From Candidatus Electrothrix scaldis (lineage in GTDB: Bacteria > Desulfobacterota > Desulfobulbia > Desulfobulbales > Desulfobulbaceae): a stretch of 64,000 nt of DNA. The stretch spans positions 2,861,826-2,925,825 of the forward strand of contig CP138355.1 of assembly GCA_033584155.1 (NCBI GenBank). The letters are read 5' to 3'. Both the position numbers and the translations under genes were made by a program. Positions 19,251 through 21,621 of the stretch are shown in pieces (position 1 is the first letter of the stretch; every line of letters starts with the position of its first letter). Below the pieces are notes generated by a model. The model saw nothing but the letters and a program-made list of their open reading frames with translations, did no database searches and was not told where the DNA came from.

Positions 19251-20909
19251 ATGATACGATCTCAAGTAAAAACACTTGTTGACCAATGTTTCCAGCAGGG
19301 CGTAGAACAGGGCCTCTGGTCTGATGCCGCCGCAAATATCTATAACGTGGAAGTACCCCGCCATGAGGGCCAGGGTGATTTTTCCACCAACTTCGCTATG
19401 GTGCTGGCTGGCAAGGAGAAACGCAATCCCCGTGAAATCGCCGGGCAGTTGGTGGACTTACTGAACAAGGATGATGATTTGCTGGAGAAAGTGGAAATTG
19501 CTGGCCCCGGCTTTGTCAATCTCTTCCTCAAACCCTCGGTCTGGAGTACAGTCCTTACTCCCATCAACGAGCAGGGTAAGGAGTTCGGTCTTTCTGATAT
19601 CGGTAAAGATAAAAAAGTCCTGGTGGAGTTTGTCAGTGCTAACCCCACTGGCCCGCTGAGCGTGGGGCATGGACGTAACGCCATCCTTGGGGATACCATT
19701 GCCCGTCTCCTTCAGGCCACCGGCCATGATGTCACCCGCGAGTACTATTTTAATAATGCAGGTCGCCAGATGCGCGTCTTGGCAGACTCCCTGCGCGCTC
19801 GCTATCTGGAAAAGCTGGGCCTGGACAATGAGTTCCCGGAAGACGGCTACCAGGGCGATTATATTTACGAGATTGCTCAGGGCATGATCGACGAGGCAGG
19901 CGATGGTTTCGTGGAAGCGGCGGATCAGAATGTCTTCCGTAAGCGGGCCCAGAATGCCATTTTTGCGGACATTGATGCCACCCTGAAGCGCATCGGCATT
20001 ACCTTTGATTCCTACTATAACGAGCACACCCTATACGAGGAAGGCCTGATTGAGGATGTGGTTGCTGAACTGAGGAAAAAAGGCCTGGTCTATGAGCAGG
20101 ATGATGCCACCTGGTTTAAGACCACAGAATTCGGTGAACAGCAGGACCGGGTGATTATTAAAAATACCGGTGAACCCACCTATCGTCTCCCGGATATAGC
20201 CTACCATCGGGAAAAATTTCGGCGTGGTTTTGACTGGATGATCAACGTATTTGGCGCCGACCATATTGCCACAGTTCCTGATGTCCTGGCTGGTGTTGAG
20301 GCCCTGGGATACGATAAGTCCAAGATCCATGTGGTGTTGTATCAGTTCGTGACCCTACTGCGGGATGGCAAGCAGGTTAAGATGTCCACCCGCAAGGCCA
20401 CCTTTGTGACGGTGGATGAACTGGTGGATGAAGTAGGCGTTGATGCCCTCCGTTTCTTTTTCCTGATGCGGAAATATGATTCCCAGCTGGAATTTGACCT
20501 GGAAGTCGCCAAGGCCCAGAGCCAGGAAAACCCGGTCTACTATGTTCAGTACGCCCATGCACGGCTTTGTTCCATTGAGCGGATGGCAGAGGAAAAAGGA
20601 GTGAGCATGCCGGTGTTTGCGGAAACCGATCTCTCCTTGCTTAAGGAAGAGGAGGAATATCAGCTGCTCAAGACGCTGGCCACTTATCCGGCCCTTGTTG
20701 CGGATGCAGCGACTGATTTGGCACCCCATCGGATAATCTTCTTCCTCATGGAGCTGGCTGGCAATTTCCACTCCTTTTACAATAAACACAAGGTGGTAAC
20801 AGAGGATCAGCAGCTCACTGCTGCGCGTCTCTGTCTCTGTCAGGGCATTAAGACTGTGCTGGCAAACGGGCTGGATCTGGTAGGTCTGGCTGCTCCTGAC
20901 AAGATGTAG
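19251..20909 (+). CDS. argS: Arginyl-tRNA synthetase
   Basis: This 552-aa class I aminoacyl-tRNA synthetase charges tRNA-Arg in the cytoplasm. It has the N-terminal Add-1 domain (about 1-110), the HIGH-like motif SVGHGRNA near residue 140, and the KMSKS-like motif VKMSTRKATF near 375. A C-terminal DALR anticodon-binding domain (about 430-552) includes YVQYAHARLCSI. Length is normal. The leader contains the 21-bp repeat array, which may influence its expression. A strong hairpin follows the gene. Confidence 0.97.
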   Translation: MIRSQVKTLVDQCFQQGVEQGLWSDAAANIYNVEVPRHEGQGDFSTNFAMVLAGKEKRNPREIAGQLVDLLNKDDDLLEKVEIAGPGFVNLFLKPSVWSTVLTPINEQGKEFGLSDIGKDKKVLVEFVSANPTGPLSVGHGRNAILGDTIARLLQATGHDVTREYYFNNAGRQMRVLADSLRARYLEKLGLDNEFPEDGYQGDYIYEIAQGMIDEAGDGFVEAADQNVFRKRAQNAIFADIDATLKRIGITFDSYYNEHTLYEEGLIEDVVAELRKKGLVYEQDDATWFKTTEFGEQQDRVIIKNTGEPTYRLPDIAYHREKFRRGFDWMINVFGADHIATVPDVLAGVEALGYDKSKIHVVLYQFVTLLRDGKQVKMSTRKATFVTVDELVDEVGVDALRFFFLMRKYDSQLEFDLEVAKAQSQENPVYYVQYAHARLCSIERMAEEKGVSMPVFAETDLSLLKEEEEYQLLKTLATYPALVADAATDLAPHRIIFFLMELAGNFHSFYNKHKVVTEDQQLTAARLCLCQGIKTVLANGLDLVGLAAPDKM

Positions 20910-20985
20910 GCAAGGTAGAGGAACTATAGATTGTCGGGGAGAGGGGGGAGAAAGATCACCTTCCGTCCTGGCGATCATTTGAGAA

Positions 20986-21040
20986 GCAACCGGTTTTCAA
21001 GTTAACCCTGGAAACCGGTTGCAAGAGATTTATTTTTTTT
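20986..21040 (+). terminator. Terminator between argS and the convergent rhodanese gene
   Basis: An 11-bp perfect stem (GCAACCGGTTT / AAACCGGTTGC, 20986-20996 and 21012-21022) is extended by wobble pairs. A T-rich run ending in eight T follows on the plus strand. The rhodanese stop codon at 21030-21032 lies within the T-rich part. Confidence 0.75.
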
Positions 21041-21440
21041 CTACCGGATAAGCATCCTTATCTTCCTGTTTATTCCACTCGTTCCAGCCACCCTTAAGGG
21101 CATAGACATTCTTTAAGCCTTTGTCCTCAATCAACTTGCGTGCCAAACTGGCACTGCTGCCTTCACTGTGTCAGGAACAGTAGACGACCAAGGTCTTGTC
21201 TTTGGGGATGCTGTCCAGCCATTCGTCAACGGTGTCCAGCGGGGTACGAATAGCCCCTTTAATCTTATAGTCGCTGAACTCCCAACCAGCTTTGGAGCGT
21301 GCATCCATAATAACCGCATCGCCTGATTCCATCAGCGCCTTCAGCTCTTCTTTGCTTATACGCGGAGCCTCAGCAGCAAGTGACACTGCTAAGGACCCAA
21401 CAAAGAGGAATATTGAGACCAGAAACAAAATTTTCTTCAT
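21030..21440 (-). CDS. Exported rhodanese-like protein with predicted selenocysteine (UGA at 21171-21173)
   Basis: A rhodanese-domain protein of 136 aa is read if the in-frame UGA is decoded as selenocysteine. The start is ATG 21438-21440 with an AGGAG ribosome-binding site; an N-terminal signal peptide (ILFLVSIFLFVGSLAVSLA) sends it to the periplasm. The domain has DAR (VIMDARSKAGWEF) and the active-site loop VVYCS-U-HSEGSSASLARKL, with Cys 88 and Sec 90. The frame continues for 46 codons past the UGA with strong rhodanese sequence (GLKNVYALKGGWNEW) to a TAA at 21030-21032. A bacterial SECIS-like hairpin follows the UGA. Known relatives have Cys at the Sec place (YCxC). It may move or reduce sulfane sulfur. 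A standard annotation would cut it short. Confidence 0.85.
21140..21154 (-). promoter_or_regulatory. Bacterial SECIS-like hairpin in the rhodanese mRNA
   Basis: Read on the minus strand, GUGCCA-GUU-UGGCAC forms a perfect 6-bp stem with a GUU loop. It begins 16 bases after the UGA, inside the range known for bacterial SECIS elements. The loop starts with the G-U that SelB recognises. Confidence 0.75.
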
Positions 21441-21621
21441 ACGTTTTCTCCTAGTATAGAGATTTTTTGTGAAAAATGGCAAGCTACTCTTACTCATTCA
21501 AGAGCAAGGAAAATGACCAAGTGAGCATATCATAAACAAAATAATGCTTCCCTTCAAAATAAAAAGGGGCGTTCTTGGCAGGAGCGCGTGGCATCGCTTT
21601 GCTCTTCCTTCACAAGTGACG

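Follow-up and report, generated by a model that had tools for sequence, protein, structure and literature searches.

A probable selenocysteine-containing periplasmic rhodanese of the CxU family in Candidatus Electrothrix scaldis and its relatives

Rhodanese domains carrying selenocysteine (Sec) have been described in several forms. In its accessible text, a 2026 review lists family NF041203 as rhodanese form 3, with a CxU motif and one Sec, citing Zhang and Gladyshev 2005 (PMC13188914), and the corresponding part of a 2022 review gives a COG0607 form 2, also CxU, with the same example protein, TKB26178.1 (PMC9312934); the two entries probably designate the same form. The gene considered here, from Candidatus Electrothrix scaldis, encodes a product that scores 145.3 bits against NF041203 (curated cut-off 115) and presents the Cys-x-Sec active-site loop of that family, with an in-frame UGA, as YCSU. 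Because this score lies above the cut-off and CxU is already listed in the review, the gene is, as far as its sequence tells, a member of the existing family "rhodanese-related (seleno)protein" and not of a new one, meaning that the loop which the initial annotation had proposed to compare with reported rhodanese selenoproteins is of a described type. No report of a CxU rhodanese in cable bacteria was found in the accessible parts of the literature searched.

The window, that is, the whole stretch of 64,000 nucleotides that was analysed, carries the following features.

21030-21440, minus strand: putative gene of a Sec-containing periplasmic rhodanese, 136 aa with UGA read as Sec, matching NF041203 and PF00581 and kept in relatives
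21372-21440, minus strand: likely signal peptide, residues 1-23 (MKK, a hydrophobic stretch, ...LAA, then E24), recognised by eye
21448-21452, minus strand: AGGAG, likely ribosome-binding site read from the sequence, with the ATG 7 nt downstream
21177-21179, minus strand: TGT, catalytic Cys88, directly after a beta strand (sequence and model); Cys in 135 of 149 distinct relatives, Sec in 13, Ser in 1
21171-21173, minus strand: UGA, candidate Sec90 (sequence, and TGA column in relatives)
21162-21164, minus strand: GAA, Glu93 (Cys+5); Glu throughout the 129 Sec forms, Leu in 9 of the 11 members with Cys at column 90
21140-21154, minus strand: SECIS-type hairpin with a GUU loop, spanning nt 17-31 past the UGA (folding and relatives)

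From the ATG at 21440-21438, 89 codons lead to the UGA at 21173-21171, which is preceded by ...LVVYCS and followed by 46 sense codons and a TAA at 21032-21030. These coordinates agree with the initial annotation, which had reported a minus-strand rhodanese frame interrupted after VVYCS, continuing to 136 residues and missed by normal gene calling; indeed, the mechanical list of open reading frames ends at the UGA, giving a 108-aa frame (21171-21497). The PF00581 score rises from 34.2 bits for the first 89 residues to 62.8 bits for the full 136 (gathering cut-off 22.2). The predicted structure (pLDDT 86.8) retrieved rhodaneses in a structure search, including GlpE (1gmx, TMq 0.73), and places Cys88 after a strand, Sec90 in the loop and Glu93 just ahead of the next helix (65, 67 and 70 in mature numbering). 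In the rhodanese fold the cysteine at this place is the catalytic one, hence the assignment of Cys88. Upstream of the gene only weak matches to promoter boxes were seen, the best -10 box (21458-21453) adjoining the ribosome-binding site, and an Rfam scan of 20900-21600 gave three matches, all far under their gathering scores.

Relatives were collected from a search of 57 genomes (the window genome and its relatives), from a scan of a species-genome collection (80 of 406 kept) and from a phylum-wide set of 395 genomes, with 61 above the family cut-off. After removal of rows scoring below 85 bits against our own model, the set comprised 200 member rows, 149 of them distinct; as the loci were gathered by similarity to the window protein or to NF041203, the Sec and Cys tallies are no census. 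The UGA column is shared by 129 of the 149, so that the close homologues, which the initial annotation had wanted aligned at this point, do not stop there. At residues 88, 90 and 93 the combinations are Cys-Sec-Glu (116), Sec-Sec-Glu (13), Cys-Cys-Leu (9), Cys-Ser-Glu (6), Cys-Cys-Glu (2), Cys-Ala-Glu (2) and Ser-Ser-Glu (1). The placement of Sec two residues after the catalytic Cys, likewise proposed in the initial annotation, thus recurs in these relatives, with 11 members having Cys at column 90. Within the window genus, TGA occupies the column in the same gene of six genomes (G000, which is the window's own, G001, G003, G004, G005 and G007), and a second Sec copy with TGA at the column is found in G002, G003, G004 and G007. 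The stop codons of matches above the cut-off were almost exclusively TGA; of the two TAA rows in the stop tables, one (L189) had its stop at another place and the other (L233) gave no readable match. The codons past the UGA show purifying selection, with dN/dS values of 0.02-0.32 in 10 pairwise comparisons among five cable-bacterium genes; before the UGA the values were 0.10-0.22 in nine pairs, one pair being not computable.

The hairpin GUGCCA-GUU-UGGCAC (21154-21140) begins 16 nt past the UGA, as noted in the initial annotation. Its interpretation as a bacterial SECIS can be compared with a published model, given in a figure legend of the 2026 review, that specifies an apical loop of 3-9 nt, an upper stem of 4-16 bp, G in the first two loop positions, a UGA-to-loop distance of 16-37 nt and a minimum free energy (MFE) of -7.5 kcal/mol or lower (PMC13188914, Fig. 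2 legend). The window hairpin agrees with this geometry: its 6-bp stem carries a GUU loop that starts with G, and 22 nt separate the UGA from the loop. By itself the 6-bp stem-loop reaches -7.2 kcal/mol, slightly short of the limit of -7.5, which may apply to a longer element. The geometry is shared by 129 of 129 Sec forms and also by 12 of 20 non-Sec relatives; adding the local energy limit of -7.5 kcal/mol leaves 31 Sec forms and one non-Sec relative. Taken on its own, the window hairpin is not clearly beyond chance, since the 50-nt fold (MFE -13.6 kcal/mol) has z = -1.5 and 16 of 200 dinucleotide shuffles fold equally well. For this one sequence the signal is weak, and it is the conservation across relatives that upholds the hairpin. 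All five core pairs (nt 17-21 with 31-27) form in 126 of the 129 Sec-type sequences, against 1 of the 20 non-Sec relatives, and loop nucleotide 23 is G in every Sec-type sequence. Pair 18-30 involves the third position of a Ser codon and that of an Ala codon; T-A occurs there in 96 and C-G in 27 of the 129 sequences, a paired silent change from AGU..GCA to AGC..GCG. Variation in the hairpin is limited. The z-score against synonymous shuffles averages -1.18 in Sec forms (n = 129) versus +0.14 in non-Sec forms (n = 20), with a Mann-Whitney p of 2.9e-7 that is too small because the rows are related.

The window organism has a Sec-decoding genome: selA (627.9 bits), selB (370.7), selD (343.8) and a tRNA-Sec with anticodon tca (75.3 bits, the selC product) were all found, which answers the check for this machinery suggested in the initial annotation, and selD itself holds an in-frame TGA. 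At phylum level, tRNA-Sec was not enriched among genomes with the family: by our reading it occurs in 61 of 68 of these and in 344 of the full set of 395, with 10 candidates scored in each genome. Genus g10 (G016, G026 and G034, 92-95% complete) belongs to the same taxonomic family as the window genus. Searches of its three genomes recovered no selA and no full-length selB; tRNA-Sec was matched at best with 45.9-47.1 bits (cut-off 47), by sequences that ARAGORN called tRNA-Ser or tRNA-Trp, and the rhodanese has Cys in place of Sec. This genus is the only clean case in which an apparent absence of the machinery accompanies the Cys form. The Cys form was discarded as a simple sign of Sec loss, given that cable-bacterium genomes with tRNA-Sec also have a Cys paralogue.

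Altogether, the frame is, with a probability of roughly 85%, a genuine selenoprotein gene belonging to the known CxU family NF041203, and it would be read through the UGA by means of the hairpin. The opposite reading would make the UGA a true stop followed by a decayed tail, or the TGA a sequencing error. A true stop would suit the mechanical frame list, which ends at this codon, and the same genome does contain one decayed Sec copy besides this gene; against it stand the purifying selection after the UGA, the TGA column of 129 of 149 members and the conserved hairpin. A sequencing error is unlikely because independent genomes carry the TGA at the column, namely G001, G002, G003, G004 and G007, together with G005, whose gene differs from that of the window at three positions of the coding sequence. 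Both versions of this reading are therefore regarded as highly improbable.

The decayed copy (L045, G000:C1:171500-173500) has lost its N-terminal part, in G005 as well; in G000 it shows in addition a frame change near the C-terminus. An intact Cys paralogue (YCAC) adjoins it, and 22 bases around its hairpin are identical to those of the window gene. Another rhodanese type, without signal peptide, has an in-frame UGA in YCxU and LLVCAY in place of the usual DxR (L055, L058 and L060).

In 13 of the 149 distinct members a UGA also replaces the codon of the catalytic Cys (YUxU). These UxU members (L102, L106, L111, L142, L172, L207, L208, L209, L211, L212, L213, L214 and L219) are spread over 12 genomes, and the five core pairs of the hairpin form in all 13. 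Apart from the genome of L172, tRNA-Sec was detected in 9 of the 11 remaining UxU genomes and not in G404 and G131, the latter having selA and selB. On a tree of 147 rows (two short rows being left out), with few columns and a bootstrap that is not settled, the UxU label requires nine changes, at least five of them forced by well-supported branches. A DUF547 frame (L102:5393-6205) lies directly downstream of the UxU gene of L102, with similar frames in L105, L106 and L111; DUF547 was matched by 4 of 118 neighbour proteins, probably those of the four loci just named, L105 among them being CxU.

Four members extend C-terminally into a stretch of eight CxxCH motifs, three of them being UxU and one CxU.

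L142:4992-6599: rhodanese-octaheme fusion, UxU
L213:1537-3153: rhodanese-octaheme fusion, UxU
L211: rhodanese-octaheme fusion, UxU
L217: rhodanese-octaheme fusion, CxU

In L142 and L213 the rhodanese part scores above the NF041203 cut-off. The C-terminal part of L142, the sole fusion searched, matches the hydroxylamine oxidoreductase-like structure 6h5l (7.9e-24), and the hydrazine dehydrogenase scores of L142 and L213 (61.6 and 84.8 bits) are below the cut-off of 900. The accessible text of the 2026 review mentions a GenBank-annotated Sec-containing octaheme cytochrome, TIGR04315 (PMC13188914), a family absent from those matched by L142 and L213 in the family scan, which is not a direct comparison. 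In the accessible open-licence literature searched, including the text of PMC13188914, no report of a UxU or octaheme-fused rhodanese was found, and the phrase "UxU motif" was met in one paper, in whose accessible part it is not linked to rhodanese.

A different association is seen in many CxU members, 40 of 103 of which have a conserved membrane protein gene within 2.5 kb upstream on the same strand; this gene was found beside no UxU member (0 of 13) and no non-Sec member (0 of 13), the count excluding 20 members whose available sequence is too short.

L103:3766-5001 and relatives: transporter-like gene, upstream, at times overlapping by a few bases
G001:C8:3224-4441: transporter-like gene, same position

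It is the next open reading frame in 28 loci, in one of them as a fragment. None of five proteins tested matched Pfam; a weak match to an amino-acid antiporter family was obtained, and the predicted structure (pLDDT 87.0) matched amino-acid transporters, the best being AdiC (5j4i, TMq 0.77). Among the eight genomes of the window genus only G001 has the gene, between the rhodanese gene and an acyltransferase gene that also flanks the window gene. The neighbour families have no common function besides this transporter.

The likely signal peptide, which bears out by eye the periplasmic location put forward in the initial annotation, would make this an exported protein, folded as a single rhodanese domain; in the predicted structure Cys88, Sec90 and Glu93 lie within or next to the loop of the active site. 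Judging from the sequence, SelB with Sec-tRNA would bind the hairpin 16 nt past the UGA, and the ribosome would insert Sec at position 90. Polysulfide, thiosulfate or a small persulfide could then donate a sulfane sulfur to Cys88, and attack by the Sec90 selenolate would yield a Cys-S-Se-Sec bond while sulfide is released or the sulfur is passed on, after which an electron carrier would reset the Cys-Sec pair. That the protein works by such a cycle, as a periplasmic sulfane-sulfur redox enzyme rather than a plain transferase, is proposed tentatively, as the likeliest mechanism. The UxU members and the octaheme cytochrome fusions favour this redox reading; against it, fusions occur in 4 of 149 members and in none of the window genus, and 40 of 103 CxU members have the transporter-like upstream gene instead. 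Nine members have Ser or Ala as residue 90, four of these in genomes that yielded no Sec copy, which speaks against a general need for the cycle. With close to an even chance, the window gene represents a broader group of periplasmic oxidoreductases acting on sulfane sulfur, whose catalytic Cys repeatedly became Sec and some of which can pass electrons directly to a fused octaheme cytochrome of the hydroxylamine oxidoreductase type.

It is also quite possible that the protein is a plain sulfurtransferase, in which Cys88 does all the chemistry and Sec90 only tunes the loop or holds the second sulfur, a role that the Cys+2 residue of other rhodaneses may have. The rhodanese fold and family agree with this, and so does Ser or Ala at Cys+2 (six CS, two CA and one SS), which implies that a redox pair is not needed in every member; G420, G175 and G202 have tRNA-Sec and no Sec copy found at E <= 1e-27. 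The accessible records of EanB structures altered at T414, two residues past the persulfided Cys412, attest to an interest in this position of another rhodanese. However, five of the nine Ser/Ala members are extra copies beside a Sec copy (G243, G265, G286 and twice in G348), and a redox function is suggested by the UxU forms and by the cytochrome fusions. Employment of Sec90 in selenium handling or oxidant defence, outside sulfur metabolism, appears unlikely. A review passage describes selenoproteins as widely thought to serve antioxidant defence, and rubrerythrin was present in 3 of 118 neighbour proteins scanned out of 145 (a raw count), but no other peroxide or selenium family was among the 25 commonest neighbour families of the 163 and of the 801 matched (raw counts as well). 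Many hosts, moreover, bear names of sulfate reducers or sulfur disproportionators, from which we presume the corresponding physiology.

Cable bacteria oxidise sulfide. Periplasmic rhodaneses are among the genes counted in a 2026 survey of cable-bacterium sulfur metabolism, whose main text gave no match to "seleno" in a text search (PMC13047784). Mechanical gene calling cuts the present gene at the UGA. Selenium may enter the periplasmic sulfur handling of these organisms. Beyond the known CxU family there are relatives with two Sec, some of them fused to a multi-heme cytochrome; together, the UxU relatives and octaheme fusions make the function of CxU rhodaneses testable with one purified protein.

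Compared with the described systems, Sec rhodanese forms 1, 2 and 4 (UxxS, UxxG) share Sec in a rhodanese domain and, compared by motif only with the accessible text of the review, have other motifs (PMC13188914). TsoB (NF045694, rhodanese/DsbD fusion-like, UxxxxU), as far as its available description goes, likewise has Sec in a rhodanese-like domain, but its motif differs and the window protein reaches 25.2 bits against a cut-off of 805. The thiosulfate sulfurtransferases GlpE and PspE also consist of one small rhodanese domain, and GlpE resembles the model in fold (TMq 0.73), yet the scores stay below the cut-off of 102 in both cases (37.7 bits for GlpE and 20.3 for PspE, NF007627). The closest system is NF041203 rhodanese_LYCAU, which, from its available description, has the same domain and the same Cys-x-Sec loop; the window loop has VYCSU where the family has LYCAU, and four residues are added ahead of YPVEKK in the cable-bacterium form, neither being a difference in kind.
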